A DNA stretch of 64,000 bases. Source: an uncultured Lacinutrix sp. GTDB taxonomy: Bacteria > Bacteroidota > Bacteroidia > Flavobacteriales > Flavobacteriaceae. The position numbers and the translations under genes were made by a program. The notes under the pieces are model-generated. The model did no database searches, had not been told where the DNA came from, and worked only from the letters and a program-made list of their open reading frames with translations. The stretch spans positions 248,001-312,000 of the forward strand of contig NZ_CANMSJ010000004.1 of the NCBI RefSeq assembly GCF_947500605.1, in the 5' to 3' direction. Positions 45,196 through 64,000 of this stretch are shown piece after piece (position 1 is the stretch's first letter; every line of letters starts with the position of its first letter).

Positions 45196-46197
45196 CTAAG
45201 ATGCGTGTTGTATGCTTTCTACTAAACCATTATTTACATAAACTTCTAATAACTTAGCATTATCTGAATTAAATGTTACTTCTTGTGTACTTGCCGGAAT
45301 CAATATAGTTTCTCCCATTTTTAAAGTCTCCTTATGTAAACCTGCAGTTACTTCTGCTTCTCCTTCTACGCACATAAAAACTACAAATGAGTCTAGATTA
45401 GAATACTCTTTTACTTGACGCTTTGTAATGTCTAATATATTAGTTGTAAAATACTCGCAATTAACTAAGTTTGTTTTTGTGTTTGGTTGCAAAGTGTAAT
45501 CTGCTTTTCCGTTTGAGTCGAATTGCTTTGTCGCTTTTTCTGCTAATTGTGTATGCAACTCTCTTTTATGTCCAGAATCGTCTGTTCTATCCCAATCATA
45601 TACACGATATGTAATATCTGATGCTTGTTGTATTTCTGCAGCTAAAACACCAGCTCCAATAGCGTGTATTTTCCCTGCTGGAATAAAAAAGCTATCACCT
45701 TTTTTAACTTGCTCTCTATTAAAAACAGCATCTACATTATTGGCATTTATATGGTTTAGAACTTCTGGATTAACCGTTTTATCCTTTAAACCTAAAACAA
45801 TATCAGCATTAGTATCACTATCCATTATATACCACATCTCTGTTTTTCCGAAACTATTATGATGCTTTTTAGCCATTTTATTATCTGGATGTACTTGTAC
45901 AGATAAATCTGTTTTTGCATCTAAAAATTTTATCAATAAAGGAAAATTGTATCCAAAATTAGCGAAATTATCTGCTCCTAAAAGCTCCGCTTCATAATCT
46001 GCTATTAACGTTTTTAAACTAGCACCTTTATAAACACCATTACTTACTTCCGAAATGTTTCCGTTTACGTCAGATATTTCCCAACTTTCACCAACATTAT
46101 CTTTATCTGTATCTTTCCCTAAAAGGTTTCCTAACTTATTACCTCCCCAAATTTTCTCTTTTAATATTGGGTTGAATTTTATTGGATATACTTTCAT
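45196..46197 (-). CDS. manA: Mannose-6-phosphate isomerase, class I
   Basis: This 333-residue cupin enzyme shows the zinc-site segments LSVQVHPDN (about 98-106) and GKTEMWYIMD (about 116-125). The catalytic-face IPAGKIHAIGAGVLAAEIQ (about 171-189) and YRVYDWDR follow. It interconverts fructose-6-phosphate and mannose-6-phosphate, the entry to GDP-mannose. It lies 10 bp downstream of the small GT2-like gene and appears to be third in the REC-GT2 operon, which ties mannose supply to the polysaccharide locus. Confidence 0.88.
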   Translation of the reverse strand: MKVYPIKFNPILKEKIWGGNKLGNLLGKDTDKDNVGESWEISDVNGNISEVSNGVYKGASLKTLIADYEAELLGADNFANFGYNFPLLIKFLDAKTDLSVQVHPDNKMAKKHHNSFGKTEMWYIMDSDTNADIVLGLKDKTVNPEVLNHINANNVDAVFNREQVKKGDSFFIPAGKIHAIGAGVLAAEIQQASDITYRVYDWDRTDDSGHKRELHTQLAEKATKQFDSNGKADYTLQPNTKTNLVNCEYFTTNILDITKRQVKEYSNLDSFVVFMCVEGEAEVTAGLHKETLKMGETILIPASTQEVTFNSDNAKLLEVYVNNGLVESIQHAS

Positions 46198-46207
46198 AAT
46201 AATTGAT

Positions 46208-46705
46208 TTAGAATTGAGTTAAACATTGACGGTCGATAAATTGATTATTTACCTTTATTTTTTTCAAATATTCTATTACCGAAAACAGACTTTGAAACAG
46301 AGTTAGCTTTATATCACGCCTTTTTAGAGTTTCAGCATTATAATCGACAATAACCTCATGGTTTTCGCTTATTGCTTTTATTAAACTATTTAATCCTTTA
46401 TAATTAATATTCAATAAATTGATTGAAACATAACCTAAATGCTTTAAGTTAAACTGACTAAACATAAACCTTGCACCTGCTCTTACTGCCGAAACGTCCG
46501 ACTTAAATTTTCTTATATCCACTACAGATACATTTTGCAACCTTGCCTCTTTAATTTCTTGCAATGCTAAAATTGTATTGTCCTTACTTGCATTATTCAC
46601 TAAACAAAATTGAATGTCTTTAGCCTGACTAAGTTGTTTTATAAAAATGGTTGTGTCTATGTGTTTTTCGTTATTATGAAAAATTATTATAATACCTGTT
46701 TTCAT
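46208..46705 (-). CDS. Short degenerate GT2-like protein lacking the DxD motif
   Basis: This 165-residue protein begins like a GT2 enzyme (GIIIIFHNNEKHIDTTIF, then CLVNNASKDNTILALQ). Where the neighbouring REC-GT2 protein has GFLDADLSTD, this protein reads YVSINLLNINYK, so the metal-binding aspartates are absent. It also stops well before the usual acceptor region. It is 26 bp after the REC-GT2 gene and 10 bp before manA. It may be a non-catalytic partner of the full GT2 or a decaying duplicate. No frameshift is visible. Confidence 0.65.
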   Translation of the reverse strand: MKTGIIIIFHNNEKHIDTTIFIKQLSQAKDIQFCLVNNASKDNTILALQEIKEARLQNVSVVDIRKFKSDVSAVRAGARFMFSQFNLKHLGYVSINLLNINYKGLNSLIKAISENHEVIVDYNAETLKRRDIKLTLFQSLFSVIEYLKKIKVNNQFIDRQCLTQF

Positions 46706-46731: not shown

Positions 46732-47916
46732 TTAGGCTACTTTTAATTCAGTTGAAACAGCTGTCTTTACATTTTGCTTTTTGTTTCTGTACACCCAAGC
46801 AATTTGTCCTAGTTGTCCAACAATTTTTATTGAATCTTTCATTGATAACTTAGAACCATCTGCATGAATCCATCTTTTTAATGGCTGCTCACAAAGCATT
46901 GTTTTTGCTTCTTTTAATCCAAAATGGATACTCATTCTTTTAAAAATTTCTACATCAAAAATCCACTGTGTTACAAACTTTTTACCAAAAGCGATATCAA
47001 TAACATCTTTATGGAAAATTTTAGCGCCACATTGCGTGTCTTTAAAGTCCATTTTTAAAATCTTTCTGATAATAAAGTTAATGGTTAAACTGATTATTTT
47101 TCTTGCAGATTCCTTTGTAATATTTGCTCCCATTCTAGAGATACGTGATCCGCTTACAATTTTAAATTCTGTAGTTTCGATAGTTTTAACTAAATCATCA
47201 AAATCTGCTAAGTCTGTAGATAAATCTGCATCTAAAAACCCGATGTAATCTAAATCTTCTTTTTCAGCCATGTGTAACATTCCTAAACGAACAGCTTCTG
47301 CTTTTCCTCCGTTTTTCTCACAATCATAAACTGTAATAAAATCTTCTCTTCCTTTTTGCAATTCTTTTAAAACTTCTAATGTTTTATCCTTACTTCCATC
47401 ATTTACAAAACACAAATGGTAACCAGAGTTTTTATCTATATAAGTAATAAATTCTTCACTTAATAAACGCTCTTCTTCATTATAACAAGGGATGACAACA
47501 CCTACACAACGCTCTTGTATTATTACATTACTTTTAGTCACTGTGTTTTGCACTTCTGGAGCACCAATTAATCGTTTTACACGTGCGCTAATTTCGTTTA
47601 AGCTTAATGGCTTTTTCATATAATCGTTAATACCTAATTCAAAACCTTCTGTTATTGTTTCGTCTTTGGTATCTCCCGATAAAACCATGATTGGCGTTTG
47701 AGAGTTTTTTGTAATTCTAATATATTTTACAACTTCCAATCCAGATACGCCTGGCATGTTTATGTCCACAATTACTAGATCCGGACTAAAAGACTCAAAT
47801 ATCTCTAAACCTTTGTTGGCGTCTGTTTCTATTTTTACTTCGTATCCTAACTCTACTAATCTTTTTTGTAAAGGCAGTAATACTAATTGTTGGTCGTCTA
47901 TTGCTAAAACTTTCAT
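46732..47916 (-). CDS. Response-regulator receiver domain fused to a GT2 glycosyltransferase
   Basis: This 394-residue cytosolic protein has a REC domain (1-118) with Asp7-Asp8, phospho-acceptor Asp51 in VIVDINMPG, Ser80 and Lys102. A short linker leads to a DPM-like GT-A domain (about 138-380) with VIPCYNEEE, VNDGSKDKT (171-179) and the metal site Asp229-Ala-Asp231. I chose ATG at 47916 (MKVLAIDD); the longer TTG form would begin inside the promoter. Phosphorylation may gate sugar transfer directly. It leads the operon with the degenerate GT2 and manA, under the box-62-promoter described at 47947-48016. Confidence 0.88.
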   Translation of the reverse strand: MKVLAIDDQQLVLLPLQKRLVELGYEVKIETDANKGLEIFESFSPDLVIVDINMPGVSGLEVVKYIRITKNSQTPIMVLSGDTKDETITEGFELGINDYMKKPLSLNEISARVKRLIGAPEVQNTVTKSNVIIQERCVGVVIPCYNEEERLLSEEFITYIDKNSGYHLCFVNDGSKDKTLEVLKELQKGREDFITVYDCEKNGGKAEAVRLGMLHMAEKEDLDYIGFLDADLSTDLADFDDLVKTIETTEFKIVSGSRISRMGANITKESARKIISLTINFIIRKILKMDFKDTQCGAKIFHKDVIDIAFGKKFVTQWIFDVEIFKRMSIHFGLKEAKTMLCEQPLKRWIHADGSKLSMKDSIKIVGQLGQIAWVYRNKKQNVKTAVSTELKVA

Positions 47917-47946: not shown

Positions 47947-48016
47947 CAAATGTACAGGAGAAAACAGCCTTGAAATTGTTATTTAGTTTAACCTATAGTT
48001 AAGTGTCGACGAATGG
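47947..48016 (-). promoter_or_regulatory. AlgR/LytTR-like box and -7 element for the REC-GT2 operon
   Basis: On the minus strand the box CCATTCGTCGACAC covers 48016 to 48003, and the -7 element TACATTTG covers 47954 to 47947. The first base of the -7 is 62 nt after the first base of the box, as at two other sites in this locus. CCATTCGTC differs at one base from the Pseudomonas AlgR box CCGTTCGTC, and AlgR is a LytTR-family activator. No good -33 is present, as expected for activator-dependent promoters. Confidence 0.65.
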
Positions 48017-48062
48017 TAGATTGCTGTAGATAATTAAAAATCAAACCACTATTATATTTATT

Positions 48063-48070
48063 TATCTTTA
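48063..48070 (+). promoter_or_regulatory. Candidate -7 element for the plus-strand polysaccharide operon
   Basis: TATCTTTA is one base off TAnnTTTG and lies 26 bp before the ATG at 48097. Its first base is 54.5 bp from the centre of GTCGAC (48006-48011), the same distance as the opposing -7 at 47954, so one bound regulator could serve both directions. Confidence 0.4.
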
Positions 48071-48096
48071 CCATATTATTACAGCTTAGGCTTTAT

Positions 48097-51000
48097 ATGA
48101 AGGAAACCTCAAACAAATTTTTAATCACCGCCATTCTTTTAGCATTGGCGTTTCATGGTAGTGCCATATTTTTTACTTTGGAAACTACTTATGACGCGTT
48201 AATACACCTATTTTTTGCAGATCATTATGCAAACAGTTGGTTTGAACCTTGGAACTACGAGTGGTACACTGGTTTTACGGTACAAAGTTATCCGCCTTTA
48301 GTGCATCAAACCATTGGACTACTGTCCATGATTGGTGGCTTAAAGTTTGGAATGTTTAGTGTGGCCTTAATTGCAATTGTACTATTTGTTACTGGTACGT
48401 ATCGTTTCTCTCTAATGATGACGGCTAATAAAACCGTTGCAGGTTATGCGTGTGTGTTGGCTGTGTTTAGCTCGTCGTTTGTAGAAACGCTTCATATTTT
48501 CGGACAGTTACCTAGTATTGTTGGGGTTTCGGTTTTAATGCATTCCCTTCCTGAGATATATTTATGGTTAAAAACCGGTAAAAAATGGTATTTAGCAACC
48601 TCTTTATCACTAATAGCAGTCACGGTAACTTCACACCATGTGACGCCCATTTTTGGAATGATCTTTTTTATCTTTCCTTTAATAGGAATGGTAATTATGG
48701 ATGTTTCGCGCGAGCAAGTCGACACCATGAAAGAAGTGACTTTCAAGCTATTTCTAAACAGTTTTTTTAAACTGTTTAAGCGTATTGTAAGTTTCGGGAT
48801 GCTTTCATTAGTCTTAATTGTAGGTTGTATTTTTCCATATTGGCTAAACTCCAAAGCCAATCCAATTACTCAAGTACCCATTCCGCATGGCTCTCGCGAT
48901 AATTTCTTAGAAATCACATCCTCCGGCTTAGTCTTCTTTTTAATTCCTTGGGGAATTTTACTAATATTATTACCCTATATTTTTTATAGATATTACAGCA
49001 AACGTTACTTGTTTTTTGGACTATCAATAACCATTTGCACCATATTAGGTACCGGAGGAACCACTCCTGTACCTTTAAAAATGTTAGGCGAAACTGCTTT
49101 TAATATTTTAACCTTAGATAGGTTTACACTTTGGGCGTCCATATTATCTATTCCTTTAATGGGCGAATTTGTGTATCGTTTTGTTGAAGGTGATTTAAAA
49201 GAACTTATTCAGTCTAAATTTGGCGCTATTTACCATCGTATTATTGGCGGAATATTAGCCGGACTTATGGTATTTATGATTGTATTTACCATGAGTTTAA
49301 ATTATTTTAGACCGTCACAACCACAGAAAATAAAGATGTTACCTATCGTTAATTTCTTAAATCAAGACGATCATGATAAATGGCGTTTTTTAACACTAGG
49401 TTTTGGCGACCAAATGGCGTGGTTAAGTGCGCAAACTAATGCTATGACTGTAGATGGAAACTACCATTCTGCAAGACGATTACCAGAATTAACCACACGA
49501 CCAATAGAGCGTTTAGAAAACTCTAAATTTAAAGGTGTTGCCGGAATTGGATCACTACAGCAATTTTTAACAACGCCAGAGAAATACAATCTTAAGTACA
49601 TATTTTCTAACGATAAGTTTTACGATCCCATCCTTTACTTTTGTGGTTGGCAACGTTTACGACAATTAGAAAATGGAATTATGGTTTGGGAACGCCTTAA
49701 CATTCCGCCAGTATCCTCTATTTTACCTAAAGAAGATGTTGCAAAATGGGTAAAATTAATGTGGGGAATCATTCCGTTTTTAACTGTTTTAATCGCCTTT
49801 ATTTTAAACATACAAATGCTTTGGGTTAATGCTTTAAAAACACGTATTAAACCAGTTCCAGATTTTTTAAAGTTTCCGACTACCTATAATAAGTTTAATA
49901 GAAATGTTTTAAGAATCACCCACGTTTGGTCATTAATTCTTGCCATAGCAGTGTTTTATGGCATCTACTTATTCTATCTAAAAAACGATTCGCAACGCAG
50001 TCCAGAAAATGCCATTATCGCATATTACGATGCTTTAGATTTTAAAGAATTTGAAAAAGCGCACAGCTTAATAGATCCTGAAAACAACTTACCAATAGCA
50101 CAATATATGCTAGAGATATCGGTAACGGATGGTTTACTAAGTAGCTATGCAAAAATGGATGCTATTGAAACCGAAATTACAAAACGTAACGACAGTACTG
50201 TCTCTGCAAAAGTGACTAGTCAATGGATTACGCCTTTAGAGAAAATTGAAAAAATTGACTATAAATCATTATCAAGGCGTAAAGGGAAATGGTATTTACA
50301 ACCAGACGATTTAAATAACGATTTACCACCAGATCAACTATACTCTGATAATGCAACCAAGTATTTTAATCAAGGTAGACGCCGCATTACAACCGAAGCA
50401 ACACACCATGAAGACATTTTAAAACAACCTGTTTTAGAAGTTGTTTCAGCTAAATTAGTGCAGTATGATGGTAGTTACGCTATAATTGGAGAAGTCCAAA
50501 ACGTAGATAATGTCCCTGCAGATGTTATTTTAAAAGGCACACTTTATAACGATAACAACAAGCAACTAGCAACGTATAATGCAAAGTACCACGTTAAGCA
50601 TAAACTAATGCCTAAAGAGTCTAGTAGTTTCCGTATTAACTTTGAAGGTATTGCTTGGTCCAGAACACAAGATTCTATTCCAGACACGTTTAATCCAGAC
50701 GAATTCACACCTATCGAATTTGAAGAACAACCAACAAAATTTAACTTACAAGTTGCAGGAAATGTTTCGGGATCTGACTTATACAAAAACGTGGTGTTAA
50801 GTGCCATTAGCATTAAAGACAGTATTATAAACGGAAACTTATTTAATAGCGGTATCCAAGAGATTACAATCCCTCAACTTTTAGTAACTTACTATGACGA
50901 AAATAAAGACATGGTTTGGGTAGATCACCTATTTGTAAAAGAAGGTGTAAGACAACAACGTAAGCAAGATTTTGAATACCACATATTACAAGATGGTCAG

Positions 51001-51186
51001 GTGAAAATAGTTAATACAGACATGAAAAACATTTTTGTAAATGGTTTACCAAACGATGCCATTGCTGGAAAAATTGTTCCTAACAGAATTGAAAACCATA
51101 GCGATGCCCAATTACAAAAAATTGACCATCCTGATTTTAGTTATATTAAAATAGAAATTAACACATACATAGGAAGCCCAAATTAA
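48097..51186 (+). CDS. PTPS-related polytopic membrane protein with periplasmic C-terminal domains
   Basis: This 1029-residue protein has about twelve membrane helices. The first loop carries ETTYDALIHLFFADHY and NSWFEPWNYEWYTGF, the signature of the PTPS-related (6-pyruvoyl-tetrahydropterin synthase related) membrane family, which looks GT-C-like. After the last helix (about 605-630) come three soluble parts. One is NTF2/SnoaL-like (about 640-745), one is FxLYD-like (VVSAKLVQYDGSYAIIGEVQ, about 788-860), and the last is beta-rich. It is first of three overlapping genes and probably builds or transfers the polysaccharide at the inner membrane. Exact chemistry is unknown. Confidence 0.7.
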   Translation: MKETSNKFLITAILLALAFHGSAIFFTLETTYDALIHLFFADHYANSWFEPWNYEWYTGFTVQSYPPLVHQTIGLLSMIGGLKFGMFSVALIAIVLFVTGTYRFSLMMTANKTVAGYACVLAVFSSSFVETLHIFGQLPSIVGVSVLMHSLPEIYLWLKTGKKWYLATSLSLIAVTVTSHHVTPIFGMIFFIFPLIGMVIMDVSREQVDTMKEVTFKLFLNSFFKLFKRIVSFGMLSLVLIVGCIFPYWLNSKANPITQVPIPHGSRDNFLEITSSGLVFFLIPWGILLILLPYIFYRYYSKRYLFFGLSITICTILGTGGTTPVPLKMLGETAFNILTLDRFTLWASILSIPLMGEFVYRFVEGDLKELIQSKFGAIYHRIIGGILAGLMVFMIVFTMSLNYFRPSQPQKIKMLPIVNFLNQDDHDKWRFLTLGFGDQMAWLSAQTNAMTVDGNYHSARRLPELTTRPIERLENSKFKGVAGIGSLQQFLTTPEKYNLKYIFSNDKFYDPILYFCGWQRLRQLENGIMVWERLNIPPVSSILPKEDVAKWVKLMWGIIPFLTVLIAFILNIQMLWVNALKTRIKPVPDFLKFPTTYNKFNRNVLRITHVWSLILAIAVFYGIYLFYLKNDSQRSPENAIIAYYDALDFKEFEKAHSLIDPENNLPIAQYMLEISVTDGLLSSYAKMDAIETEITKRNDSTVSAKVTSQWITPLEKIEKIDYKSLSRRKGKWYLQPDDLNNDLPPDQLYSDNATKYFNQGRRRITTEATHHEDILKQPVLEVVSAKLVQYDGSYAIIGEVQNVDNVPADVILKGTLYNDNNKQLATYNAKYHVKHKLMPKESSSFRINFEGIAWSRTQDSIPDTFNPDEFTPIEFEEQPTKFNLQVAGNVSGSDLYKNVVLSAISIKDSIINGNLFNSGIQEITIPQLLVTYYDENKDMVWVDHLFVKEGVRQQRKQDFEYHILQDGQVKIVNTDMKNIFVNGLPNDAIAGKIVPNRIENHSDAQLQKIDHPDFSYIKIEINTYIGSPN

Positions 51187-52403
51187 TGCTACTTAAACGC
51201 ACATACATATTTGTTTTAGGTTTGATTTTATTATCATCGTTTGCTATTGTGCAACACAATGACGCTACTAACCCTATTCAATTAGTAACGACGCAAACAG
51301 ATTATAATGTTGGTAAGCCAATTGTTTTAAAATTTACTGCTTCAGAAGGCGAAAAACCATTATTGTATTGTTCTAATAGTTATGGATCAACTTTAGTTTC
51401 GGCTATAGCCGAAGGAGGTATGCTTCAATATATAATTCCGGAAAACATAATCAAAAAAATTGGCGTTGTAAACTGGATAGTATTAGACAAAAATAAATCT
51501 GCTGCCGGTCAATTTAATATTATTCCAAAAGCAGAAGTCGCAACCATGGAAACCTATATTGGACCTCCAAGTATTGAAGCCGGAGGAACAGACTACACCA
51601 TGTTGGTAGTTATACCTACAGATTCTTTAGACAATCCTGTACCAACAAACACAAAGGTTAATGCGAGGTTTCAGTTTTTAGCTTCCGAAGAAAATGACGA
51701 CATCTTTACTAATAATTTAATTTCCTGGAGAAACATTAATTCTAAGCGAGAAAGCGGACGGATGCTTGTCTCTTCAGAAAGTTTAGGAATTAATTCTAAA
51801 GAATTTACCATTAATGTATGGGCTGCAATTCCTACAGATTTTAAAATTTCGGCAAAACGACCACATAACTACGCCGACGGAAATCAGGTAACCACTTTTA
51901 ATACCTCTGTAATTAAAGACAAGCAAGACAATGTGGTTAGCGATGGTACATTTGTTACCTTTTTTATAACCAACAACCACGGAAATATTTTAAAAACCAC
52001 AGGAACGACTATTAATGGAGTTGCACACTCTAAAATTATTCATCCTGATTTTAAAGACAACTGGAGCATTAAAGCCTATGTTGATGGTATGGCAGAAAGC
52101 GATACAATTACACTAAGTTACCAAAGTGTTATTGAAGATTTTGATGTTGCTTTTGCTAATAAAAATCGTGAAATTTTAGTTGGTCCTTTACAAAGTTTTA
52201 TGGAGCAAATGATTCCGGATGGTTTACACGTCAAACTTTTAATTTACAAAGACAATGTGCTTATTGCCACCATTATAAAAACATCTTTTAATGGGTATGT
52301 TACTTTTAATTTAAAGCCTGCTGTTTATCAAAACGACACGTATAGTTTTAGTGTTGAAACTGCTGGAATAAACAAAACATTTAATAACAAAAAACTATGG
52401 TAG
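51186..52403 (+). CDS. Exported protein with Ig-like domains
   Basis: This 405-residue protein has a signal peptide (1-24) and beta-sandwich repeats. The stretch TSVIKDKQDNVVSDGTFVTF to VDGMAESDTITLSYQ (about 240-320) reads like an invasin/Big-type Ig domain. The C-terminal 85 residues (LIYKDNVLIATIIKTSFNGYVTFNL) form another. No enzyme motif is seen. Its ATG overlaps the previous stop (TAATG) and its end overlaps the next gene by 7 bp. It may bind the polymer or bridge the membrane protein and the hydrolase in the periplasm. Confidence 0.65.
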   Translation: MLLKRTYIFVLGLILLSSFAIVQHNDATNPIQLVTTQTDYNVGKPIVLKFTASEGEKPLLYCSNSYGSTLVSAIAEGGMLQYIIPENIIKKIGVVNWIVLDKNKSAAGQFNIIPKAEVATMETYIGPPSIEAGGTDYTMLVVIPTDSLDNPVPTNTKVNARFQFLASEENDDIFTNNLISWRNINSKRESGRMLVSSESLGINSKEFTINVWAAIPTDFKISAKRPHNYADGNQVTTFNTSVIKDKQDNVVSDGTFVTFFITNNHGNILKTTGTTINGVAHSKIIHPDFKDNWSIKAYVDGMAESDTITLSYQSVIEDFDVAFANKNREILVGPLQSFMEQMIPDGLHVKLLIYKDNVLIATIIKTSFNGYVTFNLKPAVYQNDTYSFSVETAGINKTFNNKKLW

Positions 52404-53911
52404 GTCTTAATAAAAACATACTCCGTACCATATTAATAATCTCATATATTATGATTGTAGCCTTGATTATATCTGGTATAAGTGCGCTTTTTAGTTACTT
52501 AAATACGGGAGCAGACAGAAGTACGATGCTACATACCGAAATACAAAAAATTGAACAATACGCTCCAAAATTAATTTGGGAACCTTTAAACAATGAAGGT
52601 CGCCCAATGGATAACGAAAATCTAAATGCCTTACAAAACGATTATTTAGATGCTTGGTATGTCAAACAAGTGGCATACAAAAGCAATAAAACTGCTGGTA
52701 TAAAAGATTATTATACCGATAGCGCTAGAAAAAACCTATATGCATTTATAGAATTAAACAAAGCTGAAAACACAACCATTGAAGCCACAACATTAAACCA
52801 TAAACCTACTTTAAAGTTTTTTAGTGAAGACGGTCAACTTGCTGTCATTACAGATAGAAATGTTGTAGAATATAAACGGGTGTTTAAAGCTGAAAAATTA
52901 GTACTAGAAACAACAGAAACCTCAACTTACAAAATGGTGTTTTTGCTAGAAGATGGATTTTGGCGTATTAGACATTTAGTTAAAGAAAACACTAAACCTT
53001 ACGCACCACAAATAGCAAAAATTGAAACTGATAGTTTAATTATTAAAGGGATTAATTACTATCCAAAAGCAACACCTTGGAATATGTTTGGTGACGCTTT
53101 CGCGAAAGACACAATTGCCAACGACTTTAAAGTTATTAAAGACGCTGGCTTAAATTCGGTTAGAATTTTTGTGCAATATGATGACTTTGGAAAAGCTGAT
53201 GTAGATCCTAAAAAGCTAGAAAAATTAAAACAAACTTTAGATGCTGCGGAAGAACAAAACCTAAAAGTAGTAGTAACGTTATTTGATTTTTATGGTGATT
53301 ATTCTGTAATGAATTGGACCTTAAATCAACGTCACGCAGAAACTATAGTCTCTACTTTTAAAGACCACAACGCTATTATTGCTTGGGATATTAAAAACGA
53401 ACCAAACCTTGATTTTGAGTCTAGAGGAAAAGATATGGTTATTGCTTGGTTAGACAACATGATAGATTTAGTAAAATCTATAGATAAGGTACATCCTGTA
53501 ACTATTGGTTGGTCTAATACCCAAAGTGCACCAATTTTAAAAGATAAGGTAGACATTGTTTCGTTTCATTATTATGAAGGCTTAAGCGAATTGGATGCTG
53601 CCATAAAAACGATGCAAAACCAAATACCAAACAAACCATTAGTATTGCAAGAATTTGGAATGTCATCTTATAGCGGATTTTGGAAACCATTTGGAAGCTC
53701 TGAAGAAGACCAAGCTAATTATCACAAAAAAATCCAAGAGATTATTGCTTCTAATAAGTTGCAATTTATGTCTTGGACTTTATATGATTTTGTTGATGTA
53801 CCAAAAGCAGTTGTAGGTAGCAGACCTTGGCGTCGTAATACCCAAAAACGTTTTGGATTTATCGATAAAAATGGTGTAAAAAAGGCGTCATTTAAATATA
53901 TTACTAATTAA
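52397..53911 (+). CDS. Membrane-anchored GH5-like glycoside hydrolase
   Basis: This 504-residue protein has an N-terminal membrane anchor (10-34), an NTF2-like module (about 75-195) and a clan GH-A TIM barrel (about 210-504). The catalytic pair is visible: acid/base Glu335 in WDIKNEPN and nucleophile Glu419 in VLQEFGMSS. It resembles GH5/cellulase-type hydrolases. Synthesis loci for bacterial exopolysaccharides often encode such a periplasmic hydrolase (for example PslG or BcsZ) to trim the chain. Overlap by 7 bp with the Ig-like gene places it in that operon. Confidence 0.78.
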   Translation: MVGLNKNILRTILIISYIMIVALIISGISALFSYLNTGADRSTMLHTEIQKIEQYAPKLIWEPLNNEGRPMDNENLNALQNDYLDAWYVKQVAYKSNKTAGIKDYYTDSARKNLYAFIELNKAENTTIEATTLNHKPTLKFFSEDGQLAVITDRNVVEYKRVFKAEKLVLETTETSTYKMVFLLEDGFWRIRHLVKENTKPYAPQIAKIETDSLIIKGINYYPKATPWNMFGDAFAKDTIANDFKVIKDAGLNSVRIFVQYDDFGKADVDPKKLEKLKQTLDAAEEQNLKVVVTLFDFYGDYSVMNWTLNQRHAETIVSTFKDHNAIIAWDIKNEPNLDFESRGKDMVIAWLDNMIDLVKSIDKVHPVTIGWSNTQSAPILKDKVDIVSFHYYEGLSELDAAIKTMQNQIPNKPLVLQEFGMSSYSGFWKPFGSSEEDQANYHKKIQEIIASNKLQFMSWTLYDFVDVPKAVVGSRPWRRNTQKRFGFIDKNGVKKASFKYITN

Positions 53912-53945
53912 TACTTTTAATCAAATACATTATTCGTAGTTCGTT

Positions 53946-54031
53946 TGTCATTCAGAGCGAAGCGAAGAATCTCAATAACAAAACAGTATTGATTTATAAA
54001 GATTCTTCAGTCGTACCTCCTTCTGAATGAC
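53946..54031. repeat. Dispersed palindromic repeat, first copy
   Basis: TGTCATTCAGAGCGAAGCGA begins a 29-bp unit (53946-53974) that recurs inverted at 55703-55731. Within this copy GTCATTCAGA pairs with TCTGAATGAC (54022-54031) and GAAGAATCT with AGATTCTTC (54000-54008), so it folds as a long hairpin. It resembles REP-like elements frequent in Bacteroidota genomes. The 303-bp gap 53912-54214 otherwise holds only a terminator. Confidence 0.75.
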
Positions 54032-54103
54032 AACATTTTAAAACTCACTTTAATCTTGAAATTTATCATATTTTCAATACTGTTTTTGTAATTCTTGTAA
54101 AAA

Positions 54104-54144
54104 CAAAGACTATCAAATTAAGTAGGTTAACTTGAGAGTCTTTG
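54104..54144. terminator. Long hairpin between convergent genes
   Basis: CAAAGACT-A-TCAA-A-TTAA (54104-54121) pairs with TTAA-C-TTGA-G-AGTCTTTG (54127-54144), with two mismatches. It lies between the plus-strand hydrolase operon and the minus-strand GT4 gene and has A-rich flank on the left. It probably ends one or both transcripts. Confidence 0.55.
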
Positions 54145-54214
54145 ATAATAATGTCAATAAACTGACACTTGATATATTATTTGTTTGGGACAAAAAAGGT
54201 ATCGTATATTACTG

Positions 54215-55462
54215 TTATTCTAGTGTTGTTGGTTCTAAAACCACTGCTTTTTCTTTTGTTTTTCTTGCTGTTTTACTTGGCGACTTTTTAGCAATAATAG
54301 CATCAAACTTATTTAAATACATGTCTGCAATTTTCTCCATTGGATACGCTGTTGCTGCTTGATAATTAGATTTTCCTAAAGCAATTCTGTGAGCGTCGTT
54401 TGTTACAATAGCCTCAATTGCTGTTGCTAAACTATCTACAGATGTAGGCTCAAAAAATTCACCTTTATAACCTTCGTCTTTTACTAATAAAGCAAGATCT
54501 CCTAAATCCGGCATCACTACTGCTTTACCATAACTTCCTGCTTGATGTAAAACACCTGAGCTTCCTGTTGTTGATGTATAAGGAAATACAACTACCGCAC
54601 TTTCTTTAAATAAGGTTGGCACTTCATATTCTTCAACATACCCCGTAAAACGTACTTGCGGCACATGCTTATAATCTTCTTGGACTTTTGCTAAATAACC
54701 TGGCACATTTGGGTTGTCTGTTCCTGCAATTACAACTTCAAGATCTAATCCTGTAGACGCTCTTACTTTCTCAACCGCTTCAATCATACCCTCTACTTTT
54801 TTGTAGGTTCCAAATTTACCAAAAGTCATAACTTGTAAAGGACCTTGTGGTAAATCGTATTCTGGCTTTTCTTCAGAAATCTCAAAAGTTCCGTGCGGAA
54901 TTAATGTCACATTTTTAGCTTTATATTTTTTCTCTAAAATGTCAACATACTTTTGCATTGTTACTGCAACCGTATCTGCTTGTAAGATTAACCTTGTCAA
55001 GCTTGTTCCAATAAAACCATATACTTTTTGCATGATTTTGCTACTTGTAAATCCTGCTGATCCTAAATCTACTTCTTCTAATATATTATGCAATAACACG
55101 ATATTAGGAATCTTTTTTAGTTTACAAACCAATGGTAACATTAATCCTAAAGCTGCTGCTATTTTTTTGTCTCCAAACTTCATGAATTGTAAGTTGAATA
55201 AAACTGCATCTGGCTTAGTTTTACTTATAGCTTTAGTTACATTTAAAATATTTGTGTAACTATTAAAAGCCCAGCACTCTTTAACTGTAATCTTACAACC
55301 ATCTTCTGTAAAAGCAATATCTTTTGCTCCTTCTGTTTTATCTGTTAATAAAACAATTTCAGTAACATTTTCTTTTTGTCTAAAGTGCTTTACTAAATGG
55401 TAAGCATACTCATTTAAAGTTACCTTACTTGGTGGATATGCTGTTACGATTGCTAGTTTCAT
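54215..55462 (-). CDS. GT4-family glycosyltransferase
   Basis: This 415-residue GT-B enzyme has an N-terminal acceptor domain (LAIVTAYPPSKVTLNEYAYH). The C-terminal donor domain includes QVMTFGKFGTYKKVEGMIEA (about 209-228), VRFTGYVEE and the E-x7-E-type segment around SSGVLHQAGSYGKAVVMPD. It transfers a sugar from a nucleotide sugar on the cytosolic side, probably during polysaccharide repeat assembly. It stands alone on the minus strand, bracketed by the inverted copies of a 29-bp repeat, with its own box-62 promoter at 55502-55571. Confidence 0.82.
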   Translation of the reverse strand: MKLAIVTAYPPSKVTLNEYAYHLVKHFRQKENVTEIVLLTDKTEGAKDIAFTEDGCKITVKECWAFNSYTNILNVTKAISKTKPDAVLFNLQFMKFGDKKIAAALGLMLPLVCKLKKIPNIVLLHNILEEVDLGSAGFTSSKIMQKVYGFIGTSLTRLILQADTVAVTMQKYVDILEKKYKAKNVTLIPHGTFEISEEKPEYDLPQGPLQVMTFGKFGTYKKVEGMIEAVEKVRASTGLDLEVVIAGTDNPNVPGYLAKVQEDYKHVPQVRFTGYVEEYEVPTLFKESAVVVFPYTSTTGSSGVLHQAGSYGKAVVMPDLGDLALLVKDEGYKGEFFEPTSVDSLATAIEAIVTNDAHRIALGKSNYQAATAYPMEKIADMYLNKFDAIIAKKSPSKTARKTKEKAVVLEPTTLE

Positions 55463-55501
55463 TATTATATGTTTTTAATATATTGTTTCTTAATTACACT
55501 A

Positions 55502-55571
55502 CAAATTTGCGTTATTAAAGAGACATATTCAGTTGAGTTTAGATAGGTTGCAAGTTGCTGTCGACGAATGG
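55502..55571 (-). promoter_or_regulatory. AlgR/LytTR-like box and -7 element for the GT4 gene
   Basis: On the minus strand CCATTCGTCGACAG covers 55571 to 55558 and the -7-like CAAATTTG covers 55509 to 55502, again 62 nt from first base to first base. The -7 has C instead of T at its first position, shared with the STAS-operon promoter. A second, weaker half (ACCTATCTAAA) follows about one and two helical turns downstream. Confidence 0.65.
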
Positions 55572-55702
55572 AAAGTAAGTGTCGTTTCACTTTTTTATCG
55601 ATGGTTGTATTTTAATGTTTTTATGAAGAAATGATGAAAATAATCTTTTCATTTAGAAGGAGATGCCACTTAAAAATCTATACTTCCTACAACACTCTTA
55701 TA

Positions 55703-55749
55703 TGAGATTCTTCGCTTCGCTCTGAATGACAGTCTTGCTCTGAATGACA
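55703..55749. repeat. Dispersed repeat, second (inverted) copy
   Basis: The 29-bp unit at 55703-55731 is the exact reverse complement of 53946-53974. Its GCTCTGAATGACA end (55719-55731) is repeated directly at 55737-55749. The copy lies just past the flippase stop in the 299-bp gap 55463-55761. Confidence 0.75.
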
Positions 55750-55761
55750 TACTCTAATATT

Positions 55762-57006
55762 TTACTTCTCATTCTTCACATTAAAAATAAAGAAAGACAA
55801 TTGCATGACTAACAATAACACCATTGCTATAATCTGCATGTGTACTACCTGCTCTAAACTGTCATGAAAAAAGATAACTAATACCATTTGAAGCATTCCG
55901 AAGATTCCTGAAATTACTACAGGAATAAATTTATCTAACGATAAGTAGTAATAAGCAAAGATGTTTGATATGGCAAACAAACCTGTTGCTAATGCGTACT
56001 TCCATAATAATGGAGCCATCTCCAAATAGCTATCTCCAAATAACATGGTAATTGCTGTTTCTGGAAACAATGCGCAACCAATAACTATTGCTGTTGCAAT
56101 TGCTGCGATGTAACCAACGTATTCAAATAAAATAGGCGCTGTTGCTTTTCCTTCTTTTTTAAGCTGAACCACTGTTGGCAATAATAACATGACAAACATC
56201 CAAGCTACGAAGTATACTATACGACCTATTAAAGCTAAAGAAGCGTACAAACCTGCATCGTAAGCATCAAAGTAATGTTTCACTAATAAGATGTCACTAT
56301 TGTTAATTATAATCTGTGTAAGCTCGTAAAACGCTGTAATTATAAAAAAGCTTTTAACTTGTTTAGATTGGCTAGCTTCAATAGCAATTGATTTTTTAAA
56401 GTTTAAGTTTTTAAATTTGAAAGGCACTAAACCAAATCCAAAAGAGATTAAAATTCCGATAGCAATCACAACCGAAGATTGTATATCAAACAAAAAGATT
56501 AACGCTAACGTAATTACTAATCGACTTAGCATTTCAGCTTGATAGGTAATTGATAAAGACTTGAATTCTTTTTTACCTTGAAAGACACCTCTGTTTACAC
56601 TCATTAAAAAGTATAAAGGCACCCCAATTCCAAAAATAGTAAACATGCTAGAAGACGACGTATTAAAAACCGCTTGTAATTGATTTGCAAAAACAATAAT
56701 TAACGCTCCCAACCCTAAACCAACAATTGTTGCATTTTTATAAAATTTTGAAATAAAATTTGTAAAAGTTTCGTTTTCAAAAACCACAGAAAACTTTGCA
56801 GTTACCAATTGAAACGTCATAGCTACAAAAGATAGCACTAATAAAAAGGTAATTAATACAGCAGCATCTGCAAATTGTGCTGGACCTAACACACGACCTA
56901 AAATAAGATTGTACAAATAATTTCCTCCATTTACTGCCAATACGCTTAGCATAAACAATTGTTCTTGAGATATTTTTTTTGGTATTGAAAGAGATAGAGC
57001 TTGCAT
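55762..57006 (-). CDS. Wzx/MATE-type oligosaccharide flippase
   Basis: This 414-residue polytopic protein has about twelve membrane helices. The early NGGNYLYNLILGRVLGPAQF (27-46) matches the first-helix pattern of polysaccharide flippases (RfbX/Wzx, MOP superfamily). Later PLWKYALATGLFAISNIFAYYYL is also typical. It would move lipid-linked sugar units across the inner membrane. It is second in the operon started by the STAS gene, 27 bp upstream, and belongs to the polysaccharide locus. Confidence 0.8.
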   Translation of the reverse strand: MQALSLSIPKKISQEQLFMLSVLAVNGGNYLYNLILGRVLGPAQFADAAVLITFLLVLSFVAMTFQLVTAKFSVVFENETFTNFISKFYKNATIVGLGLGALIIVFANQLQAVFNTSSSSMFTIFGIGVPLYFLMSVNRGVFQGKKEFKSLSITYQAEMLSRLVITLALIFLFDIQSSVVIAIGILISFGFGLVPFKFKNLNFKKSIAIEASQSKQVKSFFIITAFYELTQIIINNSDILLVKHYFDAYDAGLYASLALIGRIVYFVAWMFVMLLLPTVVQLKKEGKATAPILFEYVGYIAAIATAIVIGCALFPETAITMLFGDSYLEMAPLLWKYALATGLFAISNIFAYYYLSLDKFIPVVISGIFGMLQMVLVIFFHDSLEQVVHMQIIAMVLLLVMQLSFFIFNVKNEK

Positions 57007-57033
57007 CTTATTAAGTGTTTTTGGTATTATTAA

Positions 57034-57312
57034 TTAGGCTATGTTAGAAAACTGATAATCTTCGTAGATTTCTTCACTTCTAAAGCCTGTAACAAAAAAT
57101 GGATTACTTTTTAATGCTTCATTTTTATACATTTCTTTTAATGTATAAAGTGCAGATTCATCAATTTCAGTAACCTTATCAAAGTCAATGGTTAAGTTTC
57201 TAAAAGGATTTTGAATTAATCCAAAATGCATTTTAAAGTTTCTTACCGTTGTTGCGTTTAATTTACCTTCTAATGTAATTGTATTGTCTTGTTGTGAAAT
57301 TGTTAATGCCAT
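57034..57312 (-). CDS. STAS-like small regulatory protein
   Basis: This 92-residue cytosolic protein has the STAS fold pattern: beta strand NTITLEGKLNATTV, then LTIDFDKVTEIDESALYTLKEMYKNE (about 40-65). The conserved Ser of anti-sigma-factor antagonists is kept in DESAL. I chose ATG at 57312; a longer TTG form would start inside the promoter. It is first in the flippase operon, has a box-62 promoter, and may be phosphorylated and link a partner-switching signal to polysaccharide export. No cognate kinase is in the window. Confidence 0.7.
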   Translation of the reverse strand: MALTISQQDNTITLEGKLNATTVRNFKMHFGLIQNPFRNLTIDFDKVTEIDESALYTLKEMYKNEALKSNPFFVTGFRSEEIYEDYQFSNIA

Positions 57313-57351
57313 AATTGTTATTTTTAAATTGTTTGTGTTTGATTTCTGATA

Positions 57352-57421
57352 CAAAGATGCGACGCAAACCTCTCAAAGACTTTTGAATTTCGATGAGTGG
57401 ACCATTGGTGTAGACGAATGA
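57352..57421 (-). promoter_or_regulatory. AlgR/LytTR-like box and -7 element for the STAS-flippase operon
   Basis: On the minus strand TCATTCGTCTACAC covers 57421 to 57408 and the -7-like CATCTTTG covers 57359 to 57352, exactly 62 nt apart. Here a clear second half-site CACTCATCGA lies 21 bp after CATTCGTCTA, the direct-repeat layout expected of LytTR regulators. Confidence 0.65.
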
Positions 57422-61299: not shown

Positions 61300-62820
61300 A
61301 TGAAAGAACTCTATAAACAGTTATTTCAGAAACACAATTTAACTACGAATGAAAATGAAATGGGTACTTACATGGACTCATTGCAAGAGTCTATGGCTAT
61401 TGGTTCTTGGGAAGTAAACTTACTAACCAACACTGCAACATGGAGTACAATGACCAAGACAATTCATGAAGTAGAACCTGATTATAAGCCTAATATATTA
61501 GAAGGTATTAATTTTTTTTTAGAAGGTTACAATAGAGATTTAGTAACTAAATTATTTAACAGAGCTGTAAATCATCAAGAAAAATACGATACAGATTTTC
61601 AATTAAAAACTGCTAAAAACAATTTAAAATGGGTGCGTATTGTTGGTTATCCTGTAATTAAAGATGGAGTTACTGTTAAAATTATTGGAGCTTTACAAGA
61701 TATTACTGATAAAAATAATTTAATTAAAAGCCTTGAACTTAAAGAAAAGCTAATAAGCACAACCTTTGAGCATGCTCCCAATGGAATGGCTTTAATAAAT
61801 TTAAAGGGTGAAATTATTTCTTTAAATAAAAGTTTTTGCGGTTTTTTAGGCTACACTAAAGAAGAACTTATTGGTTTTAAAGTAAATACTCTTTCTCATC
61901 CCGAAGATATAAATATTATACCCAACAATATTGAAGCCTTAATTAATGGAACATTAGACAAATTTAAGTGTGAGAAACGTTATTTTAGAAAAGACGGATC
62001 TATAATATACTGTATTCTGTCTGTTTCTGTACTGCGAGACGAAATAAACAATCCTATTCACTTTATATCTCAAATTATAGATATAACCGAAAGAAAATTT
62101 GCTTACAAAAAAGTAGAATCGTTATTACAGACTACCAAAAACCAAAATGAAAAACTTCTAAATTTCGCGCATATTGTATCTCACAATTTAAGATCGCATT
62201 CTGGCAACTTAGAAATGTTACTTGACCTAATGGCTGCTGAAATTCCAGAGCAAACTAAAAATGATTTTTTTCCATTAATTAAAGAAGCTGTAATCAAGCT
62301 AAGTGAAACTATTCAAAACCTGAATGAAGTTTCAAATATAAATTCTAGTAAAAAGGAAAAAATTAAAAACATCAATTTACTACAATTTGTTAATAATGCT
62401 TTAGGAAGTTTTAGGGCAGAGATATTAGAAACAAAGGCTAGTATAAATATAGATATAAATGATAAAACAGAGGTTTCTATTATACCTGCCTATCTAGATA
62501 GTATTTTATTAAATTTCATTTCTAATGCAATTAAGTATAGGAGAGAAAACATTAAGCCTGTAATAAACATTAGTGCAAAAAAAACTAAAAACTATATAAA
62601 AATAAACATAAAAGATAATGGCTTAGGCATAGATTTAGACCTGCATAAAGATAAAATTTTTGGTTTATACAAAACTTTTCATAGGCACGAAAAAGCAAGA
62701 GGTTTAGGTCTTTATATTACAAAAAGCCAAATTGAAGCTATGGGAGGTAAGGTTAAAGTAGTTAGCCAAGTAAATAAAGGTACAAAGTTTACAATATATT
62801 TAAAACATGACACAAATTGA
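61300..62820 (+). CDS. Soluble PAS-PAS sensor histidine kinase
   Basis: This 506-residue protein has no membrane helix. Two PAS domains lie at about 30-140 and 150-268, ending with DITERK. The dimerisation/phosphoacceptor segment HIVSHNLRSHSGN has His295. The ATPase domain follows with N box FISNAIKYR and G box DNGLGIDLDLHKDKIFGLY plus KARGLGLYITK. It senses an internal signal, perhaps redox or light, and phosphorylates a response regulator. The adjacent regulator gene overlaps it by 14 bp and is the obvious partner. Confidence 0.88.
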   Translation: MKELYKQLFQKHNLTTNENEMGTYMDSLQESMAIGSWEVNLLTNTATWSTMTKTIHEVEPDYKPNILEGINFFLEGYNRDLVTKLFNRAVNHQEKYDTDFQLKTAKNNLKWVRIVGYPVIKDGVTVKIIGALQDITDKNNLIKSLELKEKLISTTFEHAPNGMALINLKGEIISLNKSFCGFLGYTKEELIGFKVNTLSHPEDINIIPNNIEALINGTLDKFKCEKRYFRKDGSIIYCILSVSVLRDEINNPIHFISQIIDITERKFAYKKVESLLQTTKNQNEKLLNFAHIVSHNLRSHSGNLEMLLDLMAAEIPEQTKNDFFPLIKEAVIKLSETIQNLNEVSNINSSKKEKIKNINLLQFVNNALGSFRAEILETKASINIDINDKTEVSIIPAYLDSILLNFISNAIKYRRENIKPVINISAKKTKNYIKINIKDNGLGIDLDLHKDKIFGLYKTFHRHEKARGLGLYITKSQIEAMGGKVKVVSQVNKGTKFTIYLKHDTN

Positions 62821-63202
62821 TTCAACCTGCTTAATAGACGACGATCCTATTTTTGTTTTTGCTGTTAAAAGAATTTTAAAGTCATCACATTTAAGTGAAA
62901 ATTTTTCAGTTTACAATAATGGGAAAGAAGCTATTATTGGTTTAAAACAAATTATAGATTCTGGAAAAACCATTCCTAATCTTATTCTATTAGATCTAAA
63001 CATGCCTATAATGGATGGTTGGCAGTTTCTTGACGAATTTATTAAATTAAAAATATCGCAAAAAACAACTATATATATTGTAAGTTCTTCTATTGATCCA
63101 GCCGATTTTAATAAAGCAAAAACCTACGAACAAGTAAGCGATTTTATAGTAAAACCCATAACAAGAGAATCGTTATTAGAAATAATGCAAATAAAGGCAT
63201 AG
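62807..63202 (+). CDS. Single-domain response regulator (Rcp1-like)
   Basis: This 131-residue receiver domain has the acidic pocket Asp11-Asp12-Asp13 and phosphoacceptor Asp63 in LLDLNMPIMDGW. The conserved Ser in YIVSSS and Lys in DFIVKPIT are present. There is no output domain, so it works by protein contact, like Rcp1 or CheY. It overlaps the PAS histidine kinase gene by 14 bp. Possible downstream targets cannot be identified from the neighbourhood. Confidence 0.88.
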   Translation: MTQIDSTCLIDDDPIFVFAVKRILKSSHLSENFSVYNNGKEAIIGLKQIIDSGKTIPNLILLDLNMPIMDGWQFLDEFIKLKISQKTTIYIVSSSIDPADFNKAKTYEQVSDFIVKPITRESLLEIMQIKA

Positions 63203-63392: not shown

Positions 63393-64000
63393 TTACTTAA
63401 CTAGCAACTTCAAGGGATTATAAAGTGTTTGTGTTCCAGATAATTTACATATGTATAATCCTGAACTTAAATTTTGTTTCTGTAGTGCTATTTTATTTTT
63501 ACCAACTTGAGTTTTTACTATTTTATTAAAAACTATTTTCCCTAATTGATTATATATTACCAACTCTACTGTCTCTGTTTTATTAGACGTAAACTGAATG
63601 CTTGATGTATTAACCATTGGATTTGGATATGCAGCAAGTGTATTTGTTGTAATATTAGTTTCAAAATCATTTACAGATAAGGTATTACCTCTAGAGAAAC
63701 GTACATCTTGTAAATTCATCTCTTTTGTTGTAATTGTACCATCTTCACTTACCATTGTAAATACAATTGTTACAATATCGCTAGCATCGAACGCAGCTAA
63801 AGGAGATGTAAAATCTGAGAATAAAAGTGCATAACTCTGTAACTCGTTTGTTAATGCAATAGTTGTTTTGTACTGCTCATCCCAATTAGTAATACTTTGC
63901 TTTACTAAAGTAATTTCTAAATTACCTGTTCCTTTTGCTCTTAATTTTAGACTACTAAAATCTGTTAAATCTACAGCCTTAAAACGTGGCGTAATAGCTC
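63393..64000 (-). CDS. C-terminal part of a T9SS-exported protein with a carbohydrate-binding-like domain
   Basis: The minus-strand reading frame is open from the window edge to the stop at 63393, so the start lies beyond 64000. The visible part begins with a beta-sandwich, read as AITPRFKAVDLTDFSSLKL then RAKGTGNLEITLVKQS, resembling CBM11/CIA30-type galactose-binding folds. It ends with a T9SS type A sorting domain from AAYPNPMVNTSSIQF to LLVK (last 75 residues). It is probably an extracellular glycan-active enzyme or adhesin whose catalytic part is outside the window. Confidence 0.75.
   Translation of the reverse strand, partial: AITPRFKAVDLTDFSSLKLRAKGTGNLEITLVKQSITNWDEQYKTTIALTNELQSYALLFSDFTSPLAAFDASDIVTIVFTMVSEDGTITTKEMNLQDVRFSRGNTLSVNDFETNITTNTLAAYPNPMVNTSSIQFTSNKTETVELVIYNQLGKIVFNKIVKTQVGKNKIALQKQNLSSGLYICKLSGTQTLYNPLKLLVK

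Follow-up and report, generated by a model that had tools for sequence, protein, structure and literature searches.

The 64,000-nucleotide stretch of DNA analysed here, hereafter the window, comes from the 3.5-Mb genome of an uncultured Lacinutrix sp. (contig NZ_CANMSJ010000004.1, or C4; the window is C4:248001-312000) and contains a polysaccharide locus in which three minus-strand promoters carry a common upstream box. Judged by its sequence, that is, by the operator, its spacing and conservation, its linkage to and co-occurrence with a regulator gene, and the conserved relay and haem residues, this is a genuine LytTR regulon, conserved among relatives, whose promoters are laid out with unusual rigidity. 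Each box would form the distal half of a LytTR operator with two half-sites, an assignment that is strongly supported, and support is also strong for the linked LytTR response regulator, encoded just past the window, as their regulator. We think it probable that a haem-gas-sensing phosphorelay acts through this protein on its own operon, on two secreted-type proteins and on exopolysaccharide genes. Unprefixed positions count from the first letter of the window, those prefixed C4 along the contig that carries the locus and those prefixed C1 along another contig of the same genome.

The boxes in the window and in the genome

An earlier note on this DNA had described three minus-strand boxes, each 62 nt, first base to first base, from an octamer (TACATTTG, CAAATTTG or CATCTTTG), and all of them are where it placed them. 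Upstream of the REC-GT2/GT2/manA operon, the distal half-site (half-site A) is CCATTCGTCGACA (48004..48016), followed 22 nt on by a proximal half-site (half-site B), GGTTAAACTAAA (47982..47993), and then by the -7 element TACATTTG (47947..47954), which has the TAnnTTTG form of the flavobacterial -7 box (PMC9723704). The promoter of the GT4 gene has the same half-site A, CCATTCGTCGACA (55559..55571), with half-site B AACCTATCTAAA (55538..55549) at 21 nt and the -7 element CAAATTTG (55502..55509), and the STAS-flippase promoter combines TCATTCGTCTACA (57409..57421) with CACTCATCGAAA (57388..57399), also at 21 nt, and the -7 element CATCTTTG (57352..57359). The predicted starts would leave leaders of ~26-35 nt at the three promoters. 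The note had remarked on a second half-site at the STAS promoter, and CACTCATCGA does start 21 nt after the C of CATTCGTC (57420 to 57399), but such a half-site is a general feature of these promoters and not peculiar to that one.

The exact sequence YCATTCGTCKACA is present in six copies in the genome, five of them on one strand of C4 within ~25 kb, and the 12-mer CATTCGTCKACA has seven genome matches as against one for its reversed control. Six C4 promoters carry the box (296016, 303571 and 305421, which are those of the window, and 314094, 314702 and 321233), five exactly and one with a single mismatch, and the TTTG of the -7 element lies 66, 66, 66, 65, 66 and 86 nt, respectively, from the first base of the box. 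The proposal that the boxes mark one regulon is supported and enlarged to at least six promoters, the three beyond the window including those of a secreted protein of the type IX secretion system (T9SS) type and of a CAP-domain protein. On C1 there are another two copies (one exact, one with a single mismatch) that lack this spacing layout. Among the nine single-mismatch sites in the genome, two were examined individually, C4:314702 and C1:562612; the latter, which sits within a coding open reading frame on the opposite strand, was rejected as a chance match.

If up to two mismatches are allowed, the box is no commoner in the genome than its reversed control (183 sites as against 209), and when CATTCGTC is allowed a broad gap of 42-72 nt to TTTG, controls are roughly as frequent as matches and chance dominates. 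As the two-mismatch sites show no excess, the signal is confined to near-exact boxes with the right spacing, and degenerate sites were excluded from membership of the regulon.

Conservation of the box

Promoters were surveyed in 80 named loci with an orthologue of the linked LytTR gene, 10 of them short contig ends, and in 20 loci around REC-GT2 that were drawn from the genomes with a REC-GT2 match, 30 out of 48. Excluded were rows with upstream sequence identical over 280 nt, with identity below per-gene limits or with an alignment start past residue 30, and genes with less than 320 nt upstream. A promoter counted as boxed if it had the box with at most one mismatch, and the reversed motif, the opposite strand and the upstream regions of other genes served as controls.

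The alignment of orthologous promoters that the earlier note had suggested as a check favours its claim: across the Flavobacteriaceae, the box is present in 183 of the 254 promoters of six target genes (free-REC operon, 72/80; CAP, 13/18; T9SS protein, 39/60; STAS, 10/14; GT4, 37/56; REC-GT2, 12/26) and in none of 438 regions that lie upstream of ten control genes (H-NOX, 0/79; PAS kinase, 0/35; FIST, 0/47; second kinase, 0/48; HPt, 0/88; LytTR, 0/89; M405, 0/20; GH504, 0/21; GT2b, 0/7; manA, 0/4). The reversed motif is absent from every promoter set, and the opposite strand has a box in 1/56 GT4 and 2/26 REC-GT2 promoters. Upstream of the divergent genes TPR and M1029 there is no box in their own direction (0/67 and 0/21), but the other strand often has one (40/67 and 14/21), as shared intergenic regions would lead one to expect; these genes, like the region upstream of the flippase gene (box in 5/60, with TTTG at 66 in all five), were left out of both totals. 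The boxes of Kordia algicida have degenerated to two or three mismatches; TTTG is still found at 65 (STAS) and 66 (GT4), but the regulator operon of this species lacks a TTTG in register.

The genome-wide search for box and spacing that the note had also suggested found regular rather than random spacing: the pattern CATTCRTCKACAN{52,54}TTTG has 103 matches, in 53 of 199 family genomes, and its reversed control has none. That the three intergenic sequences of the window resemble each other by chance, as the frequency of the two-mismatch 13-mer in this genome might suggest, is contradicted by the conservation, the fixed spacing and the empty controls, and we give it practically no credence.

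Layout of the proposed operator

The putative operator reads CCATTCGTC(T/G)ACA, then, 21 or 22 nt on, the weaker half-site CAYYNANCKAAA and, usually another 43-44 nt on, TTTG as the end of a -7 element of the form TAnnTTTG. Leaving the regulator operon aside, the other five targets have 111 boxed promoters, of which 85 have TTTG at 65-67 nt (at 66 in 58, at 65 in 26 and at 67 in one) and 14 more at 85-87; between offsets 40 and 100 there are only eight occurrences elsewhere. Half-site B is present at +21/22 in all ten STAS promoters (always 21), all 13 CAP promoters (always 22), 33 of the 37 GT4 promoters, ten of the 12 REC-GT2 promoters (best half-site at +22 in nine) and 27 of the 39 T9SS promoters, with ten more of these at 42/43, although the pattern for half-site B was written after the alignments had been inspected and the test is therefore not blind. 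A recount with a tie-break that has no preference for +21/22 gives lower, chance-tested figures: 57/72 for STAS, CAP, GT4 and REC-GT2 together, where 2.4 are expected by shuffling, 25/39 for T9SS (1.2 expected) and 31/72 for the regulator operon (2.5 expected).

The regulator operon and some of the T9SS promoters have an extra tandem copy of the repeat, which shifts TTTG by one repeat to 85-87. At the regulator operon (C4:321233 and its relatives) there are often three half-sites in tandem, 21 bp apart, with a poor -7 element, often a weaker TAnnTT(T/C) near the expected place, as if this promoter were tuned to need more regulator.

As the flavobacterial TAnnTTTG spans -12 to -5 (PMC9723704), half-site A would cover about -74 to -62, and about -52 to -41 would be taken up by half-site B. 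The binding sites of LytTR regulators consist of imperfect direct repeats ~12 bp apart (PMC4064291), of 8-13 bp each, and the half-sites here are ~12 bp long with starts 21/22 nt apart or, if taken as cores of 9-10 bp, are separated by a gap of ~12. The earlier note had called the box AlgR/LytTR-like; its core does resemble the AlgR site CCGTTCGTC, but the layout, a tandem repeat centred near -57, is of the AgrA type and unlike the dispersed sites of AlgR.

The fixed distance to the -7 element could also be expected if the box were a core promoter element of an alternative sigma factor. This we regard as very improbable, since TAnnTTTG is of the primary-sigma type (PMC9723704), the box lies beyond -60, the register of the regulator and T9SS promoters can move by one full 21-nt repeat, and the box tracks the LytTR gene across genomes. 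A repressing or dual role for the linked LytTR protein at these boxes has a precedent in AlgR, which represses at rhlI and rhlA (PMC4064291), and sequence alone carries no sign of the response. Nevertheless, the two half-sites would leave the core promoter free, the spacing to the -7 element is held while no other strongly conserved element was seen between half-site B and the -7 box in the promoter alignments, and AgrA is an activator that works from a similar distance (PMC4227749), so that a repressing or dual role seems to us unlikely and activation the better reading.

The probable regulator

The best candidate for the regulator is encoded at C4:314981-315691, just past the window and 9.6 kb from the STAS box, as the last gene of a boxed operon. 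The LytTR type that the earlier note had proposed for a trans-encoded regulator is thus retained, whereas the distance implied is not. The protein matches PF00072 (69.5 bits) and PF04397 (77.2 bits), both above cut-off, and its D53, H195, R196 and S197 are present in all 97 sequences (92 distinct); its best NCBIfam models, BtsR and LytR, are both under cut-off. Orthologues, defined by a match of at least 254 bits (at least 56% identity; the next score down is 220 bits), occur in 83 of the 199 family genomes, the copy in Lacinutrix algicola being 98% identical. Box and spacing are found together in 51 of the 83 genomes with the orthologue and in two of the 116 without it (Fisher p=8e-23), and 85 of the 103 spaced matches are no more than 40 kb from the linked orthologue, whose own operon is boxed in 72 of 80 promoters.

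The genome holds 14 LytTR matches, and at C1:499546 there is a second LytTR two-component operon with a related box, which reads GGTT(A/G)TT(C/G)GTCTA(C/T)A in relatives and, in six of 14 loci examined for it, lies 53-81 nt before the matched kinase start and is followed by TAWTATTGTA. The view of C1:499546 as a chance site was dropped, since relatives carry the related box before this operon; its layout is not that of the C4 boxes, which would fit an autoregulated paralogue that shares the TTCGTC core.

Could this paralogue, or another of the 14, bind the boxes? The exact TCATTCGTCTACA stands 66 nt before the kinase gene of the C1 operon, and boxes with zero to three mismatches occur in the same six loci, our own genome included. 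However, box and spacing are found in none of the 21 genomes that have only the C1 paralogue (E <= 1e-60) and in 33 of the 55 that have the linked LytTR gene without the paralogue, and the paralogue's boxes in relatives have the divergent sequence given above and lie nearer to the start. This comparison covered two of the 14 LytTR genes, the linked one and the C1 paralogue; binding by another LytTR protein is in our estimation quite unlikely, and we take the linked protein to be the probable regulator.

The probable sensor and phosphorelay operon

The box at C4:321233 precedes an operon of the order REC, H-NOX, PAS histidine kinase, FIST, histidine kinase, HPt-like, REC-LytTR. The order REC, H-NOX, kinase, HPt, LytTR is kept in 76 of the 80 named loci, of which 46 also have FIST and then a kinase. 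The other 30 are without FIST, 14 of them with two or more kinases and 16 with one. The FIST protein and second kinase look like an optional sensor module, since 16 of the 30 loci that lack FIST also have one kinase only.

The H-NOX protein matches PF07700 with 135.8 bits, and its His104, Tyr133 and Ser135 are invariant in 79 sequences, with Arg137 in 74 and Lys in the other five; we take these conserved residues to be the haem-binding ones (YxSxR motif). It shares 85% identity with the H-NOX of Kordia algicida, the structure of which has been solved (PDB 6BDD), and the Kordia algicida protein of the surveyed locus L198, which has an operon of the same kind, is identical to 6BDD over 179 residues. 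The entries 6bdd and 6bde are deposited under an aldolase name, which for 6BDD looks like a misannotation; 6BDD is used as the Ka (Kordia algicida) H-NOX in PMC7356049.

The HPt-like protein scores 20.1 bits against PF01627 (cut-off 24.6), and its H55 and K58 are present in 94 of 94 sequences (90 distinct). Both kinases lack a receiver domain by Pfam, while a free receiver and the HPt-like protein are present in the operon, an arrangement that fits His-Asp-His-Asp transfer. The input of the regulon is likely to be a haem gas sensor, H-NOX, acting by way of a phosphorelay, and its ligand, to go by the family, is probably nitric oxide (NO).

Target genes and their neighbours

All the target genes in the window are on the minus strand. 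REC-GT2 (46732..47916; PF00072 and PF00535 above cut-off) is a fusion of a receiver with a family-2 glycosyltransferase, for which we use the ATG start at 47916 in place of the TTG start of the mechanical open reading frame. Its phospho-acceptor Asp is kept in 27 of 28 relatives, the remaining one having a gap, and control of a polysaccharide enzyme by phosphorylation is a possible consequence. In some genomes the match covers the GT2 part only, and in one of these (G019) the GT2-only version is also preceded by a box. Presumably in the same operon are an open reading frame for a second, short GT2-like protein (46208..46705; PF00535 just under cut-off) and a gene for a ManA-like mannose-6-phosphate isomerase type I (45196..46197; PF20511, PF21621). 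The GT4 glycosyltransferase (54215..55462; PF13692, PF00534), the small STAS-domain protein (57034..57312; PF01740) and the polysaccharide flippase-type transporter (55762..57006; PF13440, PF01943) complete the polysaccharide targets. At the end of the window lies the C-terminal part (63393..64000; DUF6923, Por_Secre_tail) of an 868-residue secreted-type T9SS protein, whose promoter is beyond the window, with the box at C4:314094 and TTTG at +65; the box at C4:314702 precedes the gene for the CAP-domain protein, also outside the window.

Divergent from these, on the plus strand at 48097-53911, are genes for a 1029-residue protein without a Pfam match, a 405-residue protein whose Ig-like matches are weak and a protein resembling glycoside hydrolases; all three have relatives in part of the retrieved loci, and they probably belong to the same polysaccharide locus. 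The stretch at 61300-63202, which lies past the polysaccharide genes and before that of the secreted target, encodes a PAS-domain kinase-like protein and then a free receiver protein.

Discussion

In the mechanism that we favour, H-NOX, as a haem sensor of a gas that is probably NO, would act with the PAS histidine kinase at the start of a relay to which the FIST protein and second kinase may contribute as optional extras. The signal would then pass through the free receiver and the HPt-like protein (H55) to the LytTR protein (D53) as the last step, all of these being encoded in one operon. A LytTR dimer would bind the operator, which would extend from about -74 to -41 relative to the start, and recruit RNA polymerase, and in its phosphorylated state the regulator would turn on its own operon (through the three-half-site version), the CAP-domain protein, the T9SS-type secreted protein and the exopolysaccharide genes, that is, STAS-flippase, GT4 and REC-GT2/GT2/manA. 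DNA binding, activation, the order of phosphotransfer, NO as the ligand and the sign of the response are the steps that we infer.

The receiver of REC-GT2 may allow the same relay to adjust the enzyme. A bolder version, which we put forward only tentatively and would ourselves be inclined to doubt, is that in marine Flavobacteriaceae a self-contained NO-gated phosphorelay, consisting of H-NOX and often the FIST-kinase module, controls one exopolysaccharide at two levels: through a LytTR activator that acts by way of a rigid 21-bp repeat, and through direct phosphorylation of a receiver fused to a glycosyltransferase whose gene the activator itself turns on.

Several observations weigh against this picture. 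The box, with at most one mismatch, is found in only 12 of the 26 REC-GT2 and 37 of the 56 GT4 promoters; 12 of the 111 boxed promoters of the non-regulator targets have no TTTG in either register, and the promoter of the regulator operon has it in register in only 19 of 72. The loci share descent, so that the counts are not those of independent events. On the side of the regulator, 32 of the 83 genomes with the orthologue lack the exact box and spacing, and 18 of the 103 spaced matches lie outside the 40-kb limit (three farther along the same contig, 13 on other contigs and two in genomes without the orthologue). As the paralogous operon on C1 carries a related box, the TTCGTC core is not unique to one regulator. 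On the side of the sensors, 30 of the 76 ordered loci lack FIST and 16 of these have a single kinase, and identification of the FIST protein as NosP was rejected, its match to the NCBIfam NosP equivalog model being weak (59.7 bits, E=2.5e-16, cut-off 450).

Each component of the proposed circuit is of a known kind; the combination and the operator are absent from the literature searched: in searches of open-licence papers we found no account of this operator, of this locus or of any Flavobacteriaceae LytTR operator. The locus would offer a complete, testable circuit for exopolysaccharide control in marine Flavobacteriaceae, from sensor and relay to regulator, operator and targets, and places a structurally solved H-NOX, that of Kordia algicida (6BDD), in a likely pathway. 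The rule itself (the box, 21/22 nt to half-site B, and 43-44 nt to TTTG) can predict this regulon from raw sequence within the family.

In its layout, the operator most resembles that of AgrA, the LytTR activator of agr P2/P3 in Staphylococcus aureus, which likewise has two direct repeats before the promoter with a gap of ~12 bp (PMC4064291), centred near -60 (PMC4227749) as compared with about -57 here. The recognition sequence is different, however, and here the promoter is of the Bacteroidota type and the probable input a multistep phosphorelay that includes H-NOX. AlgR of Pseudomonas aeruginosa is also a LytTR regulator of exopolysaccharide genes, and its site CCGTTCGTC is one base from CCATTCGTC (PMC4064291), but AlgR sites are dispersed (-470, -394, -45 and within genes) and need not form direct repeats 12 bp apart, in contrast to the rigid spacing seen here. 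FIST genes near hnox are mentioned in PMC8738867. The NosP-NahK pair, a FIST-domain NO sensor and its kinase, is comparable in that a FIST gene adjoins a histidine kinase gene; unlike NosP, the FIST protein here is far under the NosP cut-off and is missing from the FIST-less loci counted above.

The syp system of Vibrio fischeri also includes a STAS protein, and its regulator belongs to a different regulator family. It is there that the closest studied logic is found: H-NOX, encoded beside the kinase HahK, is thought to act with it through the phosphotransfer domain of SypF on the syp polysaccharide genes (PMC8738867), so that H-NOX, kinase, phosphotransfer domain and exopolysaccharide regulon all have their counterparts in the system described here. 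Vibrio fischeri, however, belongs to another phylum, and here the sensor, relay, regulator and targets adjoin one another and have one operator in common.

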